42,430 bases of DNA from Acidobacteriota bacterium (GTDB taxonomy: Bacteria; Acidobacteriota; Terriglobia; 2-12-FULL-54-10), in contig SHUM01000027.1 of NCBI GenBank assembly GCA_009691245.1, positions 1 to 42,430 on the forward strand, given 5' to 3'. The notes beneath the pieces are model-generated. The model saw nothing but the letters and a program-made list of their open reading frames with translations. It had not been told where the DNA came from and searched no databases. Made by a program: the position numbers and the translations under genes. This document shows, one piece after another, positions 1-14,605 of this stretch (positions are counted from its first letter, which is position 1; each line of letters begins with the position of its first letter).

Positions 1-204
1 CGGGATCACGGTGCAGAGCTGAGAGATGAATGTCTGAATGGAGAGATCTTCTATTCATTGAAGGAGGCTCAGGTGGTGATCGAACAGTGGCGGCAGCAGT
101 ACAACACCAGCAGGCCGCACTCGGCGCTCGGCTATAGGCCCCCGGCGCCGGGGGCCTATAGCCCTGTCAAAAACCCGGTTTCTCGGCCTCAGGTTGTGAT
201 GTAA
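1..204 (+). CDS. IS3-family transposase (OrfB), C-terminal fragment
   Basis: The window opens inside this gene: frame 1 is open from base 1 to a TAA at 202-204 (67 residues). The remaining part contains RDECLN followed about 30 residues later by YNTSRPHSALGY, the end of the rve/DDE integrase core of IS3-type transposases, which cut and join element ends. The first part of the catalytic domain lies outside the window, so completeness cannot be judged. The coding sequence contains a perfect 34-bp palindrome (130-163). After the stop, the stretch to about 245 (GGTACAAAATCTCGGGC and following) looks like an IS3-type terminal inverted repeat, but its partner is not visible. Bases 205-466 hold no other gene I can recognise. 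Confidence 0.8.
   Translation, partial: RDHGAELRDECLNGEIFYSLKEAQVVIEQWRQQYNTSRPHSALGYRPPAPGAYSPVKNPVSRPQVVM
130..163. repeat. 34-bp perfect palindrome inside the transposase gene
   Basis: The two 17-base halves meeting at 146/147 are exact reverse complements (left half begins GGCTATAGGCCCC) with no loop. It encodes the GYRPPAPGAYS part of the transposase tail. It could extrude as a cruciform in DNA or form a strong hairpin in mRNA. Confidence 0.9.
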
Positions 205-466
205 ACTCTCTCACAAGGATTGGTACAAAATCTCGGGCGGGCCAGGCCTCCGTCAAGCCGTCCGCATGTCCAAGAGGAGGTCTCAAATGGTTCACTTTAA
301 CCCTTTAATGGCCTAGTTAATCGTGAAGATATCCGTGTTGTTCGCGATCCACTCGGATCCGGATACGGTCGTGCTTCATGTTTTGCTGGATGTCTATATT
401 TATTTGTTCATGGAATCAATGCGCTCGAATTAGTAGGCTGAGACCAGCGCTACTTCGTGACTTTAA

Positions 467-2185
467 TTAGCGAACCGGCACGGTACGCGGTCCGGGTTTG
501 GGTAGAGGCTTGCGCGGCAGCGGTTCGGGCCGGTTGGCCGTGTGATAGACGAATGACGCGATAATCGCCGCGGCCTGCATCAGGTCGGCGGGCACGATGC
601 GGTCGTAGACGTCCATGTTGGAGTGATGCGTGCGCGAGTTGTACTCGACCTGATCCTGAATAAACTGGAAACCGGGTATGCCCACTGCGTCGAATGACAG
701 GTGATCGGTGCCGCCCGTGTTGCGAATCGAGAGCGTGGTCGCGCCCAGATCGCGGAACGGCGACAGCCACGCATCAAAAGTGGGCCGCACCATGTCGTTG
801 CCCTGCAGATAGACGCCGCGTATCTTCCCCGTGCCGTTGTCGAGATTGTAGTAGGCGGAGACCTTGCCATGCTCGGGAAGCAGCTTCATCGTCTCCGTAT
901 CGGCATAGTGATTCTTCACGTAGCCCTCAGAGCCAAACAAACCTTGTTCCTCGCCGCTCCAAAGAACTAACCGGACGGTGCGGTCCATCTTGAGGTCCAA
1001 CGTCTTCAGGATGCGCATCGCCTCCATCATCACCGCGCAGCCGGCGGCGTTGTCGGTGGCACCGGTGCCGAAGTCCCATGAATCGAGATGCCCGCCGATG
1101 ATGACCACTTCATCGCGCTTGGCGCCGCCGGGCAGTTCGGCGACCACGTTCGCCGCTTCCACCGGGTTCTCGTAAAACTGCGCCTGGACTTCGACCTCGA
1201 TCTTCACTGGCTGCTTTTTCTCGACGAGGCGCATGAGGCGGTTGTAGTGCTCCGGCGTCAACGCGATCGACGGCGGCGGGAGCGGGAAGCCGCTCTGGTA
1301 GGCCGAGCCGGCCGTGGGAGGAAATATTGTTCCACCATCACCCGCGCTGGCCGGATAGATCAGCAGCCGCACGCCCTCATTTTTCAGAAACGTGTAGAGC
1401 TTCCTGTACATGACTTCGCGCTTCACGCGCGTTTGCTCGAAGACCCATGCCGGCGCGTAGGCATTGAATCGGCGGCGCTCCTCGGGATCGGAGGGCGGAT
1501 GGGGATCGTCCATATTAATGTCGATTGGCTCGACCGGCTCGGGAGCCTCGGCGCGCTCGCGCAACTGGTCCGCCGAGTAACGAGTCGATGCGGCCTTGTC
1601 TTGAGGCTCCAGTTTTTTCAATGGACGGTACAGCAACATTTGATCGCGCAATTTGCCCTTGTACTTGGCCATGAATTTATCGATCGCGGCTTGGTATTCG
1701 TCCACATCCTGGCTGGGTTCCAGTGTGGCGATGATGGGCGTCCCGGTGAGCACGCCATTGGTGCCAGGCGTCCACGAGAGCGGCACGGCGATCAGCGGCG
1801 CATAACCCGGCTCGATCAAATGTGCTGAGACGCGGCTCGACGACCAGCCGCGCCCGAATTTTCCCCAAGGTTCCAGCGCGGCGTTCGCCAGTCCCATTTC
1901 CTTCGAACGTTTCACCACCCAATCCGCCGCTTTGTGGAAGCCGGGGGAGTTGGTCAGCCGCGGACCATGCACGTCGGTCAGATAGAATAGATGATCCATC
2001 ACCTGCGAGCGAGTGAGCGCCTCCTCGCGGATGCGATGCACCACCTGAAGGTCACTGCTGTCGGCGGCATCGAGACACGCGGCCGGCGTCAGTAGTGTGA
2101 GCAGGAGCGCAAGATGGAAAACAGGGTTGCGTGGACTTCCTGACCAGCGCTGGCGCGACAGGCAATGGATATTTATGTTTGACAC
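467..2185 (-). CDS. M28-family zinc metallopeptidase, exported
   Basis: A 572-residue protein that most likely hydrolyses peptides or amino-acid conjugates outside the cytoplasm. Residues 20-40 are a hydrophobic signal segment ending near an Ala-Ala-Cys. A long middle region, probably containing a PA-like insert, precedes the catalytic domain at about 345-550. The M28 zinc ligands are visible in order: GGHLDSWD, then GATDNAAG, then the GEEQGLFGSEG block with the catalytic glutamates, NLDNG, and a final THHSNMD histidine. The length fits the glutamate carboxypeptidase/aminopeptidase branch of M28. The start is a GTG at 2183-2185 with GGAGG only about 4 bases upstream; no better in-frame start lies before the signal segment. 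It is not in an obvious operon. Substrate cannot be told from sequence. Confidence 0.88.
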   Translation of the reverse strand: MSNINIHCLSRQRWSGSPRNPVFHLALLLTLLTPAACLDAADSSDLQVVHRIREEALTRSQVMDHLFYLTDVHGPRLTNSPGFHKAADWVVKRSKEMGLANAALEPWGKFGRGWSSSRVSAHLIEPGYAPLIAVPLSWTPGTNGVLTGTPIIATLEPSQDVDEYQAAIDKFMAKYKGKLRDQMLLYRPLKKLEPQDKAASTRYSADQLRERAEAPEPVEPIDINMDDPHPPSDPEERRRFNAYAPAWVFEQTRVKREVMYRKLYTFLKNEGVRLLIYPASAGDGGTIFPPTAGSAYQSGFPLPPPSIALTPEHYNRLMRLVEKKQPVKIEVEVQAQFYENPVEAANVVAELPGGAKRDEVVIIGGHLDSWDFGTGATDNAAGCAVMMEAMRILKTLDLKMDRTVRLVLWSGEEQGLFGSEGYVKNHYADTETMKLLPEHGKVSAYYNLDNGTGKIRGVYLQGNDMVRPTFDAWLSPFRDLGATTLSIRNTGGTDHLSFDAVGIPGFQFIQDQVEYNSRTHHSNMDVYDRIVPADLMQAAAIIASFVYHTANRPEPLPRKPLPKPGPRTVPVR

Positions 2186-2335
2186 GGGACCTCCGTGAAT
2201 GTTGAATAATCCTGAGCGATTATAGTGTACCTGCAGGACTTACGAAACAGTAATTGTGCCCCCGATCCTTTCCCCAGTTCCGCTTAATGGTAGAATCCCC
2301 TTTGCTTCATATTCGTCCCTCATCCGGGCTATGAC

Positions 2336-3343
2336 ATGAATCCACTTTTGAAAAACATTCTCCTCACCATACCGGCGGTTCGCCGCAGACGGACGGAACG
2401 GCTACGGCTAGAGAGTCTGCTGGAGGAAACCAACGCCACGCTGGCGGACGCCATTAAGCAACACCGCAAAGAGCTTGCGGGGTTGAGTATGGAGAAAGGG
2501 TTTCGGCCGGGACATTTCTACTCGCCCTACCTCGACCCGGAAGATCCGGCCGTCATCCAGGCGATGGAGTTGGAGGCGCAGTCCTCCATGACGCTCGATC
2601 AATTGGGTATTGATGAGCGGGAAGTGTTGGGCTGGTTTGAGCGCATCGCCGAGCACTATGACGCGCCGCGCGGCAAAGACCAGCCGTTTCCCAAAGATTC
2701 CACCGCGGGCAGGCGCTACCTCTACTACGCCAACCCGGCGTTTCCCCTGGCCGACGCGCTGGCCTTGCTGGCCTTCATGACCACCACGCGACCGCGGCGC
2801 TATATTGAGGTTGGGGCGGGGCACTCCTCCTGCGCGGCGCTGGACATCAACGAACAGTATCTCGGCGGGGCCGCGGAGATGACCTTCATCGATCCCCACC
2901 CGGAGACCTTTCACCAGCTCATCGCCGATTTTCCAGAGGACCGCCAGCGTATCGTGTCATCGCCATTGCAGGATGTTCCCATCGAGCGATTCACCGCGCT
3001 CGAGTCCGGCGACATTCTCTTCATCGACTCTTCGCACGTGGCCAAGACCGGCAGTGATGTGGTCGACTACATGTTCCGCATCCTGCCCGCGCTGCGTCCC
3101 GGCGTATTCGTTCACGTTCACGATATCTTTTATCCGTTCGAGTACCCGCGGCGGTGGATCGTGGACCAGAACCGCTCGTGGAACGAAGCCTATCTGCTGC
3201 GCGCCTTCCTGCACGCCAACCCGCGCTTCCGCGTGCTGTATTTATCCGACTGGATTTTTAAATGCCGCCGGGACTTGTTCGAGACGCGCATGCCGTTGTG
3301 CCTCCTGAACGCCGGCGCCAGCCTGTGGATGCGCGCCGTATGA
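2336..3343 (+). CDS. Class I SAM-dependent methyltransferase (Methyltransf_24-like)
   Basis: A 335-residue soluble protein. The Rossmann-type SAM site is visible in the middle: YIEVGAGHSSCAAL (motif I) at about residues 157-170, FIDPHPE (motif II acidic end), then DILFIDSSHV and PGVFVHVHDIFYPFEYP, which resemble the catechol-O-methyltransferase-like branch in which the Asp/His cluster lies near the active site. The first 100 residues are charged and helical with no recognised domain. No signal peptide is seen and no glycosyltransferase neighbours are present, so the substrate is unknown. It starts at ATG 2336 without a convincing ribosome site and lies divergent from the M28 peptidase gene, sharing the 150-bp gap 2186-2335 for both promoters. 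Confidence 0.8.
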   Translation: MNPLLKNILLTIPAVRRRRTERLRLESLLEETNATLADAIKQHRKELAGLSMEKGFRPGHFYSPYLDPEDPAVIQAMELEAQSSMTLDQLGIDEREVLGWFERIAEHYDAPRGKDQPFPKDSTAGRRYLYYANPAFPLADALALLAFMTTTRPRRYIEVGAGHSSCAALDINEQYLGGAAEMTFIDPHPETFHQLIADFPEDRQRIVSSPLQDVPIERFTALESGDILFIDSSHVAKTGSDVVDYMFRILPALRPGVFVHVHDIFYPFEYPRRWIVDQNRSWNEAYLLRAFLHANPRFRVLYLSDWIFKCRRDLFETRMPLCLLNAGASLWMRAV

Positions 3344-4738: not shown

Positions 4739-5277
4739 TTAATCGTTCGCTTGAAGCTGCCGCTTTCGCGCTCAATCTTCTTTTGCAGCATCAATATTGC
4801 GTAGATGAGCTGCTCGGGTCGCGGCGGACAGCCGGGGACATACACGTCAATGGGGATCACCTGATTGACGCCCTGCACAATTGCGTAGTTGTTGAACACG
4901 CCGCCCGAGGTCGCGCACGCGCCCATCGAGATCACCCACTTGGGCTCGGCCATCTGCTGATAGAGCAGCTTGATCACCGGCGCCATCTTCTGCGAGACGC
5001 GCCCCGCGATGATCATCAAATCAGACTGCCGTGGCGAGGGCCGGAAAACCTCCGCGCCGAAGCGCGCAATGTCAAAGCGCGAGCCGCCCATCGACATCAT
5101 CTCAATGGCGCAGCAGGCCAGCCCAAACGACATGGGCCACAGCGACGACTTGCGCGCCCAGTTCAGCGCATGGTCAAGCTGCGTGGTGATGATGCCCTCG
5201 GTGGAGTGCCCGCCCGTCCCAACATCGAGAGAGGATTGCCCCGCCGGCAACGGCGATGGATAATTTTCCTGCTGCAT
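4726..5277 (-). CDS. nuoB: NADH-quinone oxidoreductase subunit B (orphan copy)
   Basis: A 183-residue homologue of NuoB, the complex I subunit holding the terminal [4Fe-4S] cluster N2 that passes electrons to quinone. The four cluster cysteines are all present: adjacent C55-C56 in [12 protein letters not shown]121 in [11 protein letters not shown], and C150 in [12 protein letters not shown]. The core motifs [10 protein letters not shown] and YAIVQGV are intact, so it appears functional. It has a short non-conserved N-terminus (about 25 residues) and a short C-terminus. No nuoA or nuoC flanks it: upstream lies a decayed toxin gene and downstream the convergent ygfZ. It is therefore either a split-off part of a scattered complex I or a second copy. 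The last codons overlap the G-rich inverted repeat. Confidence 0.93.
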
Positions 5278-5449
5278 AATTAGTTCCGCCTAATTTCATT
5301 TTTCGATGCATCTGGCTAATTGTATATCGAATGCACCTACCCATTCACAAACTGAAAAACACTCAAGAATGGCCCGCAGATAGATTTCCGGGATCACTAG
5401 TGGCTACCGATACTAGAAGACGTTCGGTCCGCCATCGATTAAGGACAAA

Positions 5450-5700
5450 TTATTTGAATTCCGAACTTCGTCCGGGCGTAAAGAGCTGGGCCATCTGCGT
5501 GCCCACTTCGGTTACGAGGACGTGTCCAAGTTTGATGCTATGATTTGTCCTATTCAAAAACCGAGTGTTCCGGGTCTGGGTAGTCTCTGCTGTCGGGTCG
5601 AGGTACACGGAAGCAGCTTCCTCGAAGGAGACGGCGTGCTTGCGCTGATTGGTTCTGGCTTCGCCGCATCCCACTCGAAGATCACAGCATAAGTTTACCT
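5450..5700 (-). pseudogene. BrnT-type toxin gene remnant
   Basis: Pieces of a BrnT-like ribonuclease toxin are spread over all three minus-strand frames. At 5685-5659 a GTG-initiated VIFEWDAAK matches the usual BrnT start. After a shift of frame, RTNQRKHAVSFEEAASVYLD follows (about 5657-5595), the most diagnostic block. After another shift, DYPDPEHSVFE appears and ends at a stop, and a last block near 5470 reads LYARTKF, resembling the ISARKATKxE end of BrnT. At least two or three frameshifts plus stops make it non-functional. No BrnA antitoxin was recognised in 5330-5450, where it would normally follow. The whole gap 5278-5834 contains nothing else I could identify. Confidence 0.6.
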
Positions 5701-5834
5701 CAGGGAATGCTTGAATCAAACATTGGGTGTTGCCCGAGGAGGAGGCGCCGAAACGTCGAGCTGTGCGGGGCTTGCGCATGGCAGTAACGTGCGGTATCTT
5801 GCTTGCCAGCGGTTAGAGAGTACAGGAGGATATC

Positions 5835-6821
5835 GTGAACATCATTCTACTTGCGGCTATCATTTGGGCGGGGGCATCCGTTGTTGGCGTAGCTCCTCCC
5901 GCGGGGCAAACAATCGTCAAGCTTGATCCGGTGCTGGACGCGCTGATTGCGGCGGACGCCAGGCTGGAGATTGTCTCCAAGGATTTTGCGGAGGGCGACA
6001 GTCCCGCCACGGAAGGGCCGGTGTGGATCAAACAGGCGTCCTCGCCCGATGGCGGCTACTTTGTCTTCACCGATTCGCGGCGCACGCAGTTGACGCGCTG
6101 GTCGCCTGGCGCGGGGCTGGTGCAGGCGCATGATCTGAAGAAAATGCTCGGCGCGCTCGACCCAGAGCGGTCCCCCTCGAGCGGGCTGGCGGTTGATCCG
6201 CAGGGGCGCATTGTGTTTTGCAGCTCGGCGCGGCACGCCGTGGTGCGCATCGAGAAGGACGGCAAAGCCACCATCCTTGCCGAGACGTACAACGGCAAGC
6301 AGCTCAATAATCCCAACGACGTAACCATTGCGGCCAATGGGACCATCTTCTTCACCGACAATTCGCGCGACGAGACCGGCCAGATGCCCCCCACCGTTTA
6401 CCGCATCAAGGACGGCAAGCTTACGGCAGTGGTCAGCGGGCTCACCAGCCCCAACGGCATCACGCTCTCGCCCAATGGCAAGGTGCTCTACGTGAATGAT
6501 ATTCGCCCGCGCAAGGTCTATCGCTACGACGTCGCAGCCGACGACAGCGTGGCCAATCAGCGCCTGTTTATTGATATGAGCGCGCGCACCGAGCCTGGCT
6601 CGAACGACGGTATGCGCACCGATGAAAAGGGGAATCTCTACGACAGCGGACCCAGCGGCGTGTGGATCATCTCGCCGCAGGGCAAGCATCTGGGGACGAT
6701 CACGACGCCCGACCGTGTGTCAAATTTAAGCTTCGGCGGCGCCGACGGCAAGACGCTGTTCATGACCGGACGCTCGTCGGTGATGAGCATCCGCGTCAAG
6801 ACCGGCGGCGCGATGCGCTAG
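5835..6821 (+). CDS. SMP-30/gluconolactonase family protein, exported
   Basis: A 328-residue six-bladed beta-propeller of the SMP-30/gluconolactonase/LRE type, which typically opens sugar lactones using a bound divalent metal. Visible motifs include EGPVWIK (the family's metal-ligand Glu near residue 60), NNPNDVTIAANGTIFFTDN, SPNGITLSPNGKVLYVND and PGSNDGMRTDEKGNLYDSG, which together supply the Asn/Asp metal ligands. The first 20 residues form a signal peptide, so it acts in the periplasm. The start is GTG 5835, chosen because AGGAGG lies 8 bases upstream at 5824-5829. It is monocistronic; a long palindromic repeat begins 20 bp after the stop. The lactone substrate is unknown. Confidence 0.87.
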   Translation: MNIILLAAIIWAGASVVGVAPPAGQTIVKLDPVLDALIAADARLEIVSKDFAEGDSPATEGPVWIKQASSPDGGYFVFTDSRRTQLTRWSPGAGLVQAHDLKKMLGALDPERSPSSGLAVDPQGRIVFCSSARHAVVRIEKDGKATILAETYNGKQLNNPNDVTIAANGTIFFTDNSRDETGQMPPTVYRIKDGKLTAVVSGLTSPNGITLSPNGKVLYVNDIRPRKVYRYDVAADDSVANQRLFIDMSARTEPGSNDGMRTDEKGNLYDSGPSGVWIISPQGKHLGTITTPDRVSNLSFGGADGKTLFMTGRSSVMSIRVKTGGAMR

Positions 6822-6841
6822 CCCATTTTTATAGTTGGTGT

Positions 6842-6931
6842 ATCAGAGCCCCGACCGCCAGGGAGAGGGCACGCTTGCCGGATATCGCAGCCCGTTGAAC
6901 GTGCCCCCTCCCTGGCGGTCGGGGCTCTGAT
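6842..6931. repeat. REP-like inverted repeat, copy A (32-bp arms)
   Basis: Arms 6842-6873 and 6900-6931 are reverse complements with one mismatch (core GAGCCCCGACCGCCAGGGAG), around a 26-base loop. The outer flank TTTTTATAGTTGGTGTATC (6823-6844 region) recurs near 41660-41690 on the other strand. It lies between two convergent genes and could also terminate transcription. Confidence 0.9.
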
Positions 6932-6965
6932 TGCTAGACGCCGACAAATCTTCAGCGATTAGACT

Positions 6966-7367
6966 TCAGCGATTAATCCACGCCAGGGCTAGCGATGCGA
7001 TGAGTTTCGTTATCGAGTCATAGCCGATCTGCTGGGCGACCAGCGCGGCGGGCAGCGGCTGTACGGCGTAGTAAATCATGTAAGTGGGAAACACCAGCAG
7101 CACGATCATAGCCAGTCCGAAGCGGACGCCCTGCGCCAGCCACGGCGCGTCCTTGCGCCCCTCCAGATAGACCCACACCATGCCCACTGCGATGAATACG
7201 TGCGCCAGGAACATGTGCAGGAAGTGTGTCTGCTGGTCTTCCAGCGTGCGATAGAGCAGCGGCAATTGCGAATATCCGTCCGCTAAGAGTGCGCCATGCA
7301 CCACGAAATCCAGTCCCATGCCGAGTACGAACATGGCAACCAGCGAAATCAAGACTTTTTTGTTCAT
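6966..7367 (-). CDS. Small integral membrane protein of unknown function
   Basis: A 133-residue protein with about four predicted membrane segments: residues 4-24 (VLISLVAMFVLGMGL), about 50-70 (FLHMFLAHVFIAVGMVWVYL), 80-105 (GVRFGLAMIVLLVFPTYMIYY) and a weaker C-terminal one. It lacks obvious catalytic motifs. I could not assign a family; it resembles general small DUF membrane proteins. The start ATG 7365-7367 was chosen because GGGAGGA sits 6-8 bases upstream; the longer reading to 7487 adds an unlikely 40-residue leader that overlaps the neighbouring gene's start region. It is divergent from the VOC gene at 7502. Confidence 0.65.
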   Translation of the reverse strand: MNKKVLISLVAMFVLGMGLDFVVHGALLADGYSQLPLLYRTLEDQQTHFLHMFLAHVFIAVGMVWVYLEGRKDAPWLAQGVRFGLAMIVLLVFPTYMIYYAVQPLPAALVAQQIGYDSITKLIASLALAWINR

Positions 7368-8971: not shown

Positions 8972-10165
8972 CTAGCGCGTCGGGCAGCACTCGCCCGTGG
9001 GGATGGGGCTGCCGTGGGGGCAGCGGTCCGGGTGATTCAGAAAGATGCAAATGCGCTCGGTAACTTCCGGCGACAGGATGTGCTCAAAGGTGCAGGCGTT
9101 TGCTTCGAGTTGCTGTTCGTCGTGCATCTGAAAGGTGTCGGAGAACAGGCGCTCGGCAAGACGGTGTCGGCGGATGATGTTGGCGGCCCGCGCGCGTCCT
9201 GGTTCCGACATGACTACGAGTCCACCCTCTGGCAGCGCGCCTGCTGACTGCAAATGGCCGATGGGCTGAGACTGGCCAATAGGCTGCAACAGGCCAATCT
9301 CCCGCATCATCGGCAGCGATCTTGGATTGGCGCCGCATGAGGAATGAATCTTCTCCAGAGTGGCCGGCGTATCGGTTTCCTCCAACACCCATAGCTGCTC
9401 CAGCACTTCGTCAAAGTCCCTCTCCTGCTCGATGCTGAAACGACTGCCGGTCGGGCTGTGATCCCATATTTGCTCAATGCGCCCGTGGGCCAGGTCGATG
9501 CGGCGATTGGCCGAGCGGGCGATGATGGGATCGTGGGTCACCATGATTATGGTGTGCCCTTCGCCGTGTAGCTCGCGCAGCAGGCGCATCACGATGGCCT
9601 CATTCTCAGCGTCGAGATTTCCTGTTGGTTCATCGGCGAGCAGCAAGCTCGGCTGATTGATCAGCGCGCGGGCGATGGCCACGCGCTGCTGCTCGCCGCC
9701 GGAAAGTTGACCGGGCAGGTGCGTGGCGCGAGCGTCCAGGCCAACGCGCTCCAGCATCTCCCGCGCCTCGCGTTCGTCGGAGATGGAATGAAAGTACTGC
9801 GCTAGCATCACGTTCTCTACAGCGGTCAGGTAAGGGATCAGATGAAATTGCTGGAAGATGAAGCCGACGTGTGCAGCGCGAAAAGCCGCCAATTGCTGCT
9901 TGGAGAGGCTGGCCAGCTCCGTGCCCGCTATGCGCACCAAGCCGGCCGACTGCTGATCAAGGCCACCCAGAATGTTCAGCAGCGTACTCTTGCCGGAACC
10001 CGACGGCCCCATGATGGCCACCCACTCGCCGCCCGCCACGGTGAGATCCACGTGATCCAGCGCGATAACTGGAGTCAGGGATTTGCCGTACTGCTTGCGC
10101 AGTCCGGCAATCTCAATCAACGGCGCACCCACATCTACTTGATGTTCCACCTGATTCTTCTTCAT
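8972..10165 (-). CDS. ABC transporter ATPase fused to a DtxR/MntR-type metalloregulator domain
   Basis: A 397-residue two-part protein. Residues 16-235 are a MacB/LolD-type ABC ATPase: Walker A GPSGSGKST 53-61, Q-loop Q105, signature LSGGEQQR 154-161, Walker B LLLADEP 174-180, H-loop H211. It should power the two FtsX-type permeases encoded just upstream. Residues about 250-397 match a DtxR-family repressor: N-terminal helix DEVLEQLWVLEE, a shortened helix-turn-helix (266-293), a wing GGLVVMSEPGR, then RRHRLAERL (H334, E338) and ACTFEHILS (C358, E361, H362), which correspond to DtxR metal ligands H79, E83, C102, E105 and H106; H98 is replaced by E354. CPHGSPIP at 382-389 is also typical of the family. 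An 18-residue repeat-derived insert splits HTH and wing. The ATG at 10163-10165 has CAGGAA upstream; an in-frame extension to 10279 is unlikely. Probably a metal-gated transporter subunit, an autoregulator, or both. Confidence 0.9.
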   Translation of the reverse strand: MKKNQVEHQVDVGAPLIEIAGLRKQYGKSLTPVIALDHVDLTVAGGEWVAIMGPSGSGKSTLLNILGGLDQQSAGLVRIAGTELASLSKQQLAAFRAAHVGFIFQQFHLIPYLTAVENVMLAQYFHSISDEREAREMLERVGLDARATHLPGQLSGGEQQRVAIARALINQPSLLLADEPTGNLDAENEAIVMRLLRELHGEGHTIIMVTHDPIIARSANRRIDLAHGRIEQIWDHSPTGSRFSIEQERDFDEVLEQLWVLEETDTPATLEKIHSSCGANPRSLPMMREIGLLQPIGQSQPIGHLQSAGALPEGGLVVMSEPGRARAANIIRRHRLAERLFSDTFQMHDEQQLEANACTFEHILSPEVTERICIFLNHPDRCPHGSPIPTGECCPTR

Positions 10166-10273
10166 CTGGTTTCCTGCAGTCCTAAGCCTTGAGTCTAACT
10201 TAGTATCGTGTCCCGACAGTATTGCGTCGTTTCTCTCCGTGTCGGCCCGTTTCGGCCCGTGTCGTCCCGATGG

Positions 10274-10362
10274 TGTCATTCTGAGCCAGCGAAGAACCTG
10301 CTTTTCTCTGAATCACCCGGCTGCCAAGGTAAAGCAGGTCCTTCGCTGCGCTCAGGATGACA
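10274..10362. repeat. Long inverted repeat inside the iron operon
   Basis: The arm at 10274-10304 (GTCATTCTGAGCCAGCGAAG core) is complemented by 10331-10362 (CCTTCGCTGCGCTCAGGATG core) with few mismatches. It fills the 252-bp gap between the second permease gene and the ATPase gene. This type of repeat (GTCATTCTGAGC...CTCAGGATGAC) is common in intergenic DNA of acidobacteria, from memory. It may attenuate transcription into the ATPase gene. Confidence 0.8.
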
Positions 10363-10417
10363 GCGTAGCGGGGGGAGCGGGAGGGCGAGCGAAGGAGAAT
10401 ACATTCTCCCCATGGCC

Positions 10418-11743
10418 CTACTCGCCGCGCAGAATCACGGCTGGGTCAATACGCTTCATCTGCTGCGCGGGCAGAGCGCAGGCGAGCAACGCCACGGCCA
10501 CCGTGATGCCTACCACCGCCGCGAAGACATCTCCGCGCAAAGCCAGCGCCGCTTCACCAGAGGCAATATTGAAGATGCGGTTCGCCGCCATCCTCGCCAG
10601 GCCAAAGCCCACGGCATATCCGGCAATTGATGCGCCCAGGGCCAGCAGGGAAGTCTCCGCGATCAGCAGCTGCAGGATGCGGCCGTCGCTGCCGCCCAGC
10701 GCTTTCATCACGCCAATCTCCTTCGAGCGATCTAGCACCAGCCCGCTGACCGTTGTCATCACGCTTAACAGGACCAGCGCGAGGACCATGGTGGTCAAGC
10801 CGAGCATCAGGCCGCGAATCTTCATCACAACGCGGGCCTGCGCTTCGATGACGGGCCGCAGTGCGCGGACTTCAATGTCGCCAAAGCCAATGTCGCCAGC
10901 GCCAAGGCCGCCAGTGCCAAGGCCAGCAGTGCCAGGCGTCGAGGAAGTGGAGGTGGCCAGTCCGGCAAGCAGAGACGCGCGCGCCGCCTCCACCTGAGCC
11001 GTCTCGCCGGGCGCGGCTACTTCAATGACGCTGAGCTGACCGCGGTGCCCGGTTAGTTTCTGTAGGGTGTCCAGCGGCAGGAATATCTGCTTGTCCTCGC
11101 TGCCGCCCGTGGCGACGATGCCACGCAGGGGCAGCTCCAGCTCACGGCCAGCGTATGCAATCTTCACCATCTGTTCGCTGTTCGATGCAGCGTTCCAACC
11201 CTTCGGGGCAAGCTGTTCCGCGGCGCGCTCACCCATCCATACCGCTGGCTCGTCGGTTGGCTTGCCTGAAGGCTTAAATGGAGCGGGAGCTAATTGCAAA
11301 TCCCAACTCGGATGTAGTTGAGCAATGCGCTCCATCTCCGTTCCCGCCAGTACCAGACTCTTTTGGTTCACGGTGCCGACCGCGTAGAGCCACGGCAGCA
11401 TCGCCGCGGACGGAGTCAGTGTGCGAGCTTGGGCGAGCGTTGCTTGTGGCAGCATGGCGTGGGGTGCGTCCGCGGATTCGGTGTCCGAAGACTTCGCAGA
11501 CGGAGCGATCAGCAGATTGGGGCCGAGCGTTCGGAACTCGGCAGTCATTTTGGAGGGCAGGTCGAAATAGAGACTCAAAAACGCGCTGGAGAGCGTGGCG
11601 CTCACCACCAGCGCGGACAGTACGGCTATCAGCTTGCCGGGCCTGTGCGCGATGGCCCGCAGCAGCAGGCGCGGCATCATCATCTGTGAGGCCAGCGTGG
11701 GTGCAGCGTTCGACGACCGGCCGAATTGTGCTCTGCTCGTCAT
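10418..11743 (-). CDS. ABC transporter permease, FtsX/MacB type (second)
   Basis: A 441-residue permease with the FtsX layout: one N-terminal membrane helix (about 35-60), a large extracytoplasmic MacB-like domain (about 65-300), then three helices (about 315-345, 365-390, 405-430) with the cytoplasmic DRSKEIGVMKALGGSDG loop that contacts the ATPase. The periplasmic part contains a Gly/Thr-rich low-complexity stretch (GTAGLGTGGLGAGDIGFGD). It starts 12 bp after the first permease gene stops, so the two are co-translated and probably form a heterodimer. By neighbourhood with FTR1 it belongs to the iron system, similar to the paired permeases of the Campylobacter p19-FTR1 locus (known from that family); the substrate is inferred. 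Confidence 0.85.
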   Translation of the reverse strand: MTSRAQFGRSSNAAPTLASQMMMPRLLLRAIAHRPGKLIAVLSALVVSATLSSAFLSLYFDLPSKMTAEFRTLGPNLLIAPSAKSSDTESADAPHAMLPQATLAQARTLTPSAAMLPWLYAVGTVNQKSLVLAGTEMERIAQLHPSWDLQLAPAPFKPSGKPTDEPAVWMGERAAEQLAPKGWNAASNSEQMVKIAYAGRELELPLRGIVATGGSEDKQIFLPLDTLQKLTGHRGQLSVIEVAAPGETAQVEAARASLLAGLATSTSSTPGTAGLGTGGLGAGDIGFGDIEVRALRPVIEAQARVVMKIRGLMLGLTTMVLALVLLSVMTTVSGLVLDRSKEIGVMKALGGSDGRILQLLIAETSLLALGASIAGYAVGFGLARMAANRIFNIASGEAALALRGDVFAAVVGITVAVALLACALPAQQMKRIDPAVILRGE

Positions 11744-11755
11744 TAAATCAAATCC

Positions 11756-13135
11756 CTACTCCCCACGCAAAACGGGTGCGGGTTGCTGGCGTACCGCGCG
11801 CAACACGGGCAGCCATGTGCCGGCCAGACTTAAGATCACCGCACCAGCCACAATGACCGGTAGCAACAGCCAATGGACGGCCACATCGGTTTCAAATACG
11901 GCGCGACCGACTGCGCTGGCCAGCAGTTGTCCGCCGCAGAAACCGAGTACGCCGCCCGCCAGCCCTTGCAGGGCCATCTCAGTCATCAGGAAGGTGGAGA
12001 CCAATCCGTCTGTTGCGCCGATGGCCTTCATCAAAGCGATCTCCTGGCGGCGCTCGATAACACTAAGGCTGGCCAGGCTGGAGATGCCCATCGCCGCGGC
12101 CAGCAGGGCCAGCAGTGCGAGCAGCACCATCAGGAAAGTCATCTTGCTCAAGATGCTGCCTTGGGTCTCGGCCACTTCGCGGATCGGCCGCACCACGGAA
12201 CCGGGAATCGCGCCGCCAATCTGATACATGATGGAGGAAAGATAGGGCGCGCAAAACCAACGATCGTAGTCCGCCGGCGACATGGACTCCGGATCGCGCC
12301 GCGAGAGTGGGTCCTCCGGCTTGATCAGCGCGCTGACGCGGATGGTTTCCACCTGGCCCAATCGCCCCGAGATTTTCTGGACCGCTGCCAGAGGAGCAAA
12401 TATCTGATCGTCCTCCGCCGTGCCGGTGGAAAGAATGCCGGTGATGCGGAATACGGATGGCGCGAAAGCTTGTCCGTCGGCTGGTGCGAAGTCCGCTGCG
12501 ATGAGATCACCGGGTTGCGTCTTCAGTTGCCGGGCTAGTCGCTCACCGAGCATGGCGGGAATCGGTTGGCCGGAGTCGGGAGGTTGAGTCGTGTCGGTGG
12601 CCCACTCTCCTTGGACAAACCAAGCCGGATTCAGCGCGCGGATTCCGGTCCGAAAAGATTCATCTTCATTCTTAATCATCGGAAAATCGAACCAGGTTCC
12701 GGTCAGAGTAGCCGATACCGCAGATTCCGACAATTTGGATGATTTGTCTGTGGCCAGAGTGGTCAATTTGGGCAATTCCGTGAAAGTGTGCAATTTGGTC
12801 GGAACCGCAAGAAACGGCGCGAATGACTTGATATTATTGCGCCAGAAAATCGACTTCAGTTTGGGCAGAGACCCTTCGGCGAGGCTGCTTTCCTCCGAGA
12901 TCGGGCGGTATTCCATGCCTCCGATGGCGACGGGAAGAGAGTCGCCTGCCGAAGTGATGACGATGTTGGGGCCCAGTGCGCGAACTTCCTCACCCATGCG
13001 ATCGCCGATTTCAATCGAAACGTTTAGCATGGCCGCCGACACGGCTGTGCCCAGTGCCATGGCCGCCACGGCCCACAGCGCCCGGCGGCGCGTGTGAGGC
13101 CGGCGAAAGGGTTCGCGAATAAGTCTCCAATACAT
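11756..13135 (-). CDS. ABC transporter permease, FtsX/MacB type (first)
   Basis: A 459-residue FtsX-type permease: N-terminal helix about 20-42, extracytoplasmic domain about 45-330, then helices near 335-365, 385-410 and 425-445. The loop IERRQEIALMKAIGATDG between helices 2 and 3 is the ATPase-contact motif, and the protein ends PVLRGE, an ending shared with its neighbour (AVILRGE), which shows that the two permeases are distant paralogues. It begins 31 bp after the FTR1 stop codon. It lacks catalytic motifs. Likely role: with the second permease and the fused ATPase, a mechanotransmission-type or efflux/insertion ABC module that assists iron handling at the FTR1 permease. Confidence 0.85.
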   Translation of the reverse strand: MYWRLIREPFRRPHTRRRALWAVAAMALGTAVSAAMLNVSIEIGDRMGEEVRALGPNIVITSAGDSLPVAIGGMEYRPISEESSLAEGSLPKLKSIFWRNNIKSFAPFLAVPTKLHTFTELPKLTTLATDKSSKLSESAVSATLTGTWFDFPMIKNEDESFRTGIRALNPAWFVQGEWATDTTQPPDSGQPIPAMLGERLARQLKTQPGDLIAADFAPADGQAFAPSVFRITGILSTGTAEDDQIFAPLAAVQKISGRLGQVETIRVSALIKPEDPLSRRDPESMSPADYDRWFCAPYLSSIMYQIGGAIPGSVVRPIREVAETQGSILSKMTFLMVLLALLALLAAAMGISSLASLSVIERRQEIALMKAIGATDGLVSTFLMTEMALQGLAGGVLGFCGGQLLASAVGRAVFETDVAVHWLLLPVIVAGAVILSLAGTWLPVLRAVRQQPAPVLRGE

Positions 13136-13166: not shown

Positions 13167-14444
13167 TCAGTTACTTGACCGAGTATCTCCTGTAAAGAAT
13201 CTGCTGCCAGTAGTTAGGTCACTTACATTGATTAGTAACTCATTGTCTTGGACGCGTGAGGCCAGCGGCAGGGGATTGCATCCGCCAGTGACTCCTATGG
13301 ATGGCGCATAAATCTCCGCTGTGCAATTCTTGCAGAAAACGTGTGGTCCCTGCTGATAGTAGCCCTGCGATCCGCAGATCACGCAGGCATCGAAGGCTGT
13401 GCCGATGCGGTCGCCGGTCTGGATGGCGATGAAGCGCGCCGTCGTGTCCGTGCCCTGATAGAGAAAACGCTGTAGCGTGCCATCCGACACTTGCGCCAAT
13501 GGTATGCGGATAACGCCATCCACAGCGGTTACAGACTGGGCAGGCGTAAGAGAAGTCTGGCTCTTGGCATAAATGAATTCGGCGGTGATGGCCATTATGA
13601 AAATCAACGAGCTGGCGCAGACCGCGCCGGCCCAGAGTTTTTCGCGGCGAGCGATGTGCAACGCAGAGCGGCGCTCGGCGGCGGGCAGGGTGGAATCATC
13701 GGTCCGGTGAGTGTTGCGCGCGCGCCAATCAAATAGAATCATCATGCTGGCCAGGGCAAGAATGAGTACAATAAAGAAGAAGTCATTACTCACTATTGGT
13801 CCGATCAGAGCCATCATTTGCCGGTTACTGGGAACCACACCGGCTTCAGATAGTTCATGCAAGCCGGAGACTACCAATTGAATGACTACGGCGATGAGTA
13901 TGACGGTAGTGATCTGGAAGAAGCGGCGGATATCCAGGCGCACCGAACCACGTAGAAAGAGCACACCAAAGATCGTGGCGAGAGCCAGACCGGCGATGGC
14001 CCCGAAGAAGTCCAGCAAGTCAGAGGTGTTCAGGGTAACGGCGCTGAGGATCAGTACCGTCTCCAGGCCTTCGCGGAAGACAATGAGAAATACGAAGAAA
14101 AACACGCCCCATAGCGAGGCTGCTGGCTGGGCGGATACGGACTCCAGCCGCTGTTCGATGTGCTGCTTCAAGCCACGTGCGGTCCGGTGCATCCAATAGA
14201 GCATGGTGGCGACGAAGAAGGCGGCGGTCAGGAAGACATATCCCTCGAAGGCTTCCTGATTGATGGAGATGCCTTGCAGGATTACGGCACCCGCAATGCT
14301 CGCCGCGATCGCGGCGCCCAGTGCCCAGTAAACGGTTCTGACGGCCTGTTCGCGGCCCGTCTTGCGCAAGTAGATGATCGCGATCCCGATGATCAGGGCC
14401 GCCTCAACTCCTTCGCGCAATGTAACCACCAATGATTGAATCAT
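13167..14444 (-). CDS. FTR1-family iron permease fused to a DUF2318-like Fe-S domain
   Basis: A 425-residue protein. Residues 1-295 form the FTR1/EfeU permease with about seven membrane helices and both iron-binding REGxE motifs: REGVE 10-14 and REGLE 124-128. Residues about 308-395 form a DUF2318-like (Fe-S-containing membrane protein) domain with cysteines C354 and C357 (CVIC), C371 and C374 (CKNC) and C389 (GGC), suited to bind metal or an Fe-S/redox centre. In Campylobacter-type p19-FTR1 loci the two parts are usually separate genes (established knowledge); here they are one chain. This is the first gene of the operon, preceded by the promoter and operator at 14583-14637. No P19, EfeO or EfeB gene is in the window, so the oxidase or periplasmic chaperone partner is missing or elsewhere. 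Confidence 0.92.
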   Translation of the reverse strand: MIQSLVVTLREGVEAALIIGIAIIYLRKTGREQAVRTVYWALGAAIAASIAGAVILQGISINQEAFEGYVFLTAAFFVATMLYWMHRTARGLKQHIEQRLESVSAQPAASLWGVFFFVFLIVFREGLETVLILSAVTLNTSDLLDFFGAIAGLALATIFGVLFLRGSVRLDIRRFFQITTVILIAVVIQLVVSGLHELSEAGVVPSNRQMMALIGPIVSNDFFFIVLILALASMMILFDWRARNTHRTDDSTLPAAERRSALHIARREKLWAGAVCASSLIFIMAITAEFIYAKSQTSLTPAQSVTAVDGVIRIPLAQVSDGTLQRFLYQGTDTTARFIAIQTGDRIGTAFDACVICGSQGYYQQGPHVFCKNCTAEIYAPSIGVTGGCNPLPLASRVQDNELLINVSDLTTGSRFFTGDTRSSN

Positions 14445-14582: not shown

Positions 14583-14605
14583 TTATTGCAAATAGGTTGC
14601 AATAA
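14583..14605 (-). promoter_or_regulatory. Perfect inverted-repeat operator of the iron operon
   Basis: TTATTGCAA (14583-14591), a 5-base spacer, then TTGCAATAA (14597-14605), an exact 9+9 inverted repeat. It begins two bases downstream of the -10 box of the minus-strand promoter and so covers the expected transcription start. AT-rich dyads of this size suit Fur- or DtxR-family repressors; which protein binds is inference. Confidence 0.6.

Follow-up and report, generated by a model that had tools for sequence, protein, structure and literature searches.

What is a metal sensor of the DtxR type doing on the ATPase of an ABC transporter? The question is raised by the last gene of an iron-uptake operon in the window, the whole 42,430-nt stretch of acidobacterial DNA that was analysed. 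The gene (8972–10165, minus strand) starts at an ATG with AGGAAACC just before it and runs for 397 codons without an internal stop. A sequence-only reading had described a MacB-type ATPase continuing in frame into a DtxR-like region, and the single intact reading frame bears this out. The ABC ATPase domain, of the MacB/LolD type (residues 16 to 235; 9461–10120, minus strand), which belongs to a FetD orthologue, matches the Pfam family ABC_tran at residues 36 to 181 (1.9e-35), and its best match in the PDB is the ABC domain of MacB (5lj9). The suspected nature of the tail was confirmed by both profile and structure. Fe_dep_repr_C (PF02742), the DtxR metal-binding and dimerisation domain, matches residues 321 to 390 (8996–9205, minus strand) at 1.5e-23, scoring 83 bits where 27 is the cut-off. 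The same match was recovered in a genome scan, and a profile search found the family in 48/48 fusion homologues. The AlphaFold models, which are of monomers only, have a mean pLDDT of 87 for the whole protein and 88 for the tail (residues 240 to 397). Foldseek matched the predicted tail to the two-domain DtxR/IdeR fold in the PDB at E-values around 1e-8 (best entry 7b24, 1.4e-8), with TM-scores of up to 0.84.

The suspected association with FTR1 genes proved constant; the fusion is the last gene of an operon FTR1(DUF2318)-FetB-FetC-FetD in every locus with enough flanking sequence. In the window, an FTR1 iron permease that is fused to an FtrD-like/DUF2318 domain (13167–14444, minus strand; FTR1 1.8e-37, FtrD-like 1.9e-25) is followed by two permeases of the FtsX/MacB type. 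The FetB-type permease (11756–13135, minus strand; PF02687 3.2e-16) and the FetC-type permease (10418–11743, minus strand; PF02687 4.3e-15) are respectively 37% and 29% identical to FetB and FetC of the E. coli plasmid fet operon, and the ATPase is 57% identical to FetD. In pairwise comparisons E. coli FetM and FetA are the counterparts of the two halves of the window FTR1 protein. The operon is thus an orthologue of fetM/fetABCD, known from Campylobacter and E. coli. It has the gene order of the Fet system (fetMP-fetABCDEF in C. jejuni, FetMP-Fls on E. coli and Salmonella plasmids), with an FTR1 permease, a DUF2318/FtrD-like protein, two FtsX-type permeases and an ATPase. The E. coli plasmid operon comprises genes for FTR1, P19, an Fe–S/FtrD protein, two permeases and the ATPase, then a TlpA-like gene and a small gene. 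The window operon differs in that FetM and FetA are fused into one protein, P19 (FetP; PF10634) has no match in the window's genome and no thioredoxin genes were seen adjoining the operon. It also differs in the DtxR tail, which is absent from the 231-residue E. coli FetD and is not mentioned for FetD in PMC10783030 or PMC6083913. Growth of C. jejuni in low iron depends on each of fetB, fetC and fetD, and what the Fet ABC transporter carries is not known (PMC10783030). A palindromic repeat with 18-nt arms (10262–10372) is inserted between fetC and fetD; it has 64 matches in several dozen places of the genome and is probably a MITE/REP-like element.

The same in-frame fusion is found in relatives of the same class at 57–68% identity. 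GTDB contigs contain 533 relatives, of which the best 80 are all from Acidobacteriota, and these 80 loci together with regions from other acidobacterial genomes gave 91 distinct in-frame fusions. Because the fusion recurs in frame in all 91 sequences, chance and sequencing error can both be dismissed as its cause; the concern that two separate genes had been joined by such an error falls away, and a frameshift or assembly artefact is likewise ruled out. No plasmid-borne fusion covering 80% of the query was present among the 5000 best tblastn records. The remark that no example had been described agrees with our search of the open-access literature, which found no description of an ABC-DtxR fusion.

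The tail is not universal. FetB is present in 51/396 sampled acidobacterial genomes; by place-matching of two listings, the DtxR domain adjoins FetB in 22 of these, is absent in 26 (21 from one genus, two on short contigs and possibly cut) and is cut off by a contig end in three. The FetD tree requires several changes between the fused and unfused state. Since unfused FetD sits within the otherwise fused families f6 and f9, repeated loss of the tail is probable. No remnants of a DtxR tail were found 3′ of the unfused FetD genes. Two unfused loci of family f6 (L038 and L200) share a similar small protein after fetD, with a CPCAMC and a second CPC motif. Another unfused FetD of the same phylum (L194:119-964, minus strand) has another cysteine motif at its end, ACPNCGMNLFKKHEH, which may be a metal-binding tail of independent origin.

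The nearest relatives of the tail are not ordinary DtxRs. They are proteins of approximately 180–300 residues in which the same domain is followed by FeoA, and which in 30/32 loci are encoded immediately downstream of FeoB, on the same strand. A tree of 72 DtxR domains, for which 139 columns is a small number, places the fusions in a single group (93/94) that nests with 15 of these DtxR-FeoA proteins (97/96) and stands apart from the ordinary DtxRs (100/98). The simplest reading of this tree would be a single fusion event in which FeoA was lost. The FeoB-linked (“CC type”) proteins have in common with the fusion the domain itself, a Cys/His motif, a decayed helix-turn-helix (HTH) and their ancestry. 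They differ in possessing a FeoA domain and a FeoB neighbour, whereas the fusion has no FeoA domain by Pfam and is joined to an ATPase instead. Since the fusions fall within this family, a single transporter-associated derivative of DtxR is used by two Fe2+ uptake systems that are unrelated to each other. In the window's genome no FeoB is convincing, the best matches scoring 36–48 bits in open frames of 342–486 residues. Two further proteins directly beside FeoB begin with what appears to be a membrane helix, which is followed by a DtxR-type domain and a pair of FeoA domains (L213:2305-3333, minus strand, FeoB at 77-2491, minus strand; L215:3863-4891, plus strand, FeoB at 4888-7119, plus strand). 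These are apparently membrane-tethered DtxR-like proteins, a third transporter-linked arrangement. FeoB in L222 (3533-5742) and FTR1 in L031 (4583-5816) are each split over two ORFs that adjoin or overlap, perhaps through frameshifts or assembly errors.

Compared with the DtxR/IdeR/MntR metalloregulators, the tail shares the two-domain fold and most metal ligands but is fused to an ATPase, lacks a FeoA/SH3 domain, carries an extra Cys/His motif and has an HTH that PF01325 does not recognise. This decayed winged HTH (residues 245 to 320; 9206–9433, minus strand) retains Glu-253 and Glu-256. PF01325 has no Pfam match in the window protein and is not among the families that at least three of the 48 fusions match at E 0.1. 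It matches 11/11 ordinary DtxRs and only 1/31 FeoB-linked proteins, weakly. The HTH is the least conserved portion of the tail: the mean pairwise identity of HTH and metal core is 0.20 versus 0.61 in 15 diverse fusions and 0.16 versus 0.57 in the FeoB-linked proteins, compared to 0.37 versus 0.60 in ordinary DtxRs. In the AlphaFold model a helix spans residues 245 to 263 and the recognition helix has seven residues only (283 to 289). DNA binding by the tail has probably gone, to judge from this sequence record. The sequence-only reading had noted a shortened HTH and took it to favour an allosteric role; the missing PF01325 match and the low conservation agree. An imperfect 18-bp tandem repeat inside the gene (9255–9298) encodes QPIG-like repeats that form a short insertion in the wing; its sequence differs in a relative of the same genus (L023). 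A His-rich insertion (HPPEPHGHKHIVNPCHD) found in the wing of L029, L030 and many fusions from Acidobacteriaceae may be a further metal-binding element.

The metal ligands, by comparison, have been kept. His-334, Glu-338, Cys-358, Glu-361 and His-362 are all where the sequence-only reading had put them, with Glu-354 at the position of DtxR His-98. Two ligands of helix 1 which had been missed, Glu-253 and Glu-256, occupy the positions of MntR Asp-8 and Glu-11. These residues other than Glu-354 are kept in 79–91 of the 91 fusions; at the His-98 position, mostly Glu, Glu-354 is kept in 74/91. The most conserved feature of the tail had also been overlooked. This is a Cys/His motif, C373-x4-H378-x3-C382-x-H384-x8-C393-C394 (8984–9049, minus strand), which is invariant in 91/91 fusions and conserved in 29–31 of 31 FeoB-linked relatives. 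Its cysteines are missing from ordinary DtxRs with one exception, at Cys-382. The motif may be a second metal or Fe–S site. In family f4 (L033, L035, L036 and L039) several primary DtxR ligands are lost and the motif stays; the DtxR site may therefore not be the working sensor everywhere. The FTR1 and FeoB context points to Fe2+ as the ligand of the tail, although Mn2+ may be sensed instead.

These observations suggest that FetD-DtxR is a Fet-type iron-uptake ATPase with a built-in cytoplasmic iron gauge that acts as a trans-inhibition brake, a proposal to which we give an even chance. Two copies of FetD under FetB–FetC would bring two DtxR-derived tails together on the cytoplasmic side. Plentiful cytoplasmic Fe2+ would load the DtxR site (Glu-253, Glu-256, His-334, Glu-338, Cys-358, Glu-361 and His-362), the Cys/His site or both. 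The loaded tails would pair or rotate in the manner of a DtxR dimer and keep the ATPase domains apart; the ABC complex would stop and FTR1-dependent uptake would fall. We infer the pairing of tails in the FetD dimer, as well as metal binding and gating by the tail. The inhibitory sign of the control is inferred by analogy. In MetN and ModC, C-terminal ligand-binding domains restrain the ATPase domains by trans-inhibition; like these the FetD tail is C-terminal on an ABC ATPase, and pairing across two copies is expected (PMC10710835). The tail has a DtxR fold, not that of MetN or ModC, and inhibition is carried over from them by analogy only. A further point against the brake is that the partners of FetD are of the MacB/FtsX type, whereas MetNI and ModBC are type I importers. 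In its favour, the operon is an iron operon orthologous to fet, the tail has the fold and ligands of DtxR, the metal core is conserved while the HTH is unrecognisable and unconstrained, and the same domain is tied to two unrelated iron-uptake systems, each containing an NTPase. The domain is accessory, being absent in some sister operons, which fits a regulator rather than a catalytic part.

The Cys/His motif admits another reading, unlikely but the strongest of those we considered besides the brake: the tail would be a FeoC-like redox or Fe–S sensor, in which an Fe–S cluster or thiolate metal site held by the motif would register oxygen or iron status and govern how active or how stable the ATPase is, with a secondary part for the original DtxR site. 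The invariance of the motif, its persistence where DtxR ligands are lost and its presence in the FeoB-linked relatives are all consistent with such a sensor. The FeoC fold is a winged helix. FeoC has an oxygen-sensitive Fe–S cluster and controls FeoB stability, and so acts on a Fe2+ transporter (PMC10710835). FeoC is, however, a separate small protein whose mechanism is protection from proteolysis, and no homology or sequence relation between it and the tail was detected. The spacing of the motif matches no Fe–S motif that we could name, and in most members the DtxR ligands are conserved too.

The many soft and hard ligands of the tail, its constant location in an FTR1 operon and the related domain beside FeoB would also suit a role as iron chaperone or acceptor, in which the tail would collect Fe2+ emerging from the FTR1 channel and pass it on in the cytoplasm. 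We consider this improbable; the tail belongs to the ABC ATPase and not to a permease, the DtxR fold is that of a switch which dimerises, and FetB/FetC are not known as an iron channel. Retention of the dimerisation helices with a decayed HTH, and the probable loss of the domain in some lineages, could indicate a vestigial dimerisation module that stabilises the FetD dimer. Near-invariant ligands and a Cys/His motif maintained phylum-wide would not be expected of a mere clamp, making this distinctly improbable.

Transcriptional control of the operon appears to lie elsewhere. A palindrome upstream of FTR1, TTATTGCAAATAGGTTGCAATAA (14583–14605), contains a TTGCAA-N5-TTGCAA core (14586–14602) with one other exact copy in the 3.43 Mb genome, 85 bp before a TonB-dependent receptor gene; a reversed-pattern control found no copies. 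Related boxes (TTGCAA-N5-TTGCAA or TTGAAATTGAAATTCATTTTCAA) occur approximately 15–210 bp before FTR1 in most fet operons, including operons with unfused FetD (L038, L195 and L200). We take these boxes to resemble 7-1-7 Fur boxes (TGCAAATnATTTGCA). The copy at the TonB-receptor gene and the boxes at unfused operons are as expected for a Fur-type iron box, which the palindrome would be on sequence grounds. C. jejuni fetM has a Fur site too (PMC10783030). With boxes at fused and unfused operons alike, transcriptional control is most simply ascribed to Fur. A second job for the ATPase, as DNA-binding repressor of the operon that encodes it, is very improbable: a winged-helix topology is still predicted and a palindrome lies upstream, but the HTH is decayed, boxes of this type also precede unfused operons and the TonB-receptor gene, and the genome has a separate Fur and one ordinary DtxR. 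A repressor acting at 14583–14605 was rejected as unlikely on the same grounds of HTH decay and boxes elsewhere. The sequence-only reading had offered gating or moonlighting; its DtxR-type sensor on an iron-operon ABC ATPase, with an allosteric role, stands, and the moonlighting repressor is not supported since unfused operons have the boxes too.

Both the Fet system and regulated ABC ATPases are already known, and the fusion is a variant of both. The more surprising point is that a transporter-bound DtxR branch occurs in two unrelated systems. It is plausible, if somewhat short of an even chance, that this branch left transcription and became a general post-translational iron gauge, in the DtxR-FeoA proteins beside FeoB and in the FetD fusion. 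That the old Fe2+ site and the new Cys/His metal or Fe–S site would there switch the NTPase directly is a suggestion we hold just as tentatively. The fast shut-off of iron importers, ahead of gene repression, is poorly known, and work on the Fet system has yet to settle what FetBCD does. An ATPase that carries its own iron sensor, one shared with FeoB-linked proteins, would make post-translational control directly testable. By implication, some of the genes annotated as regulators of the DtxR family may not encode transcription factors. In many soil Acidobacteriota the DtxR-derived tail seems to have abandoned DNA binding, so that the pump probably gauges cell iron for itself and holds back its activity accordingly.
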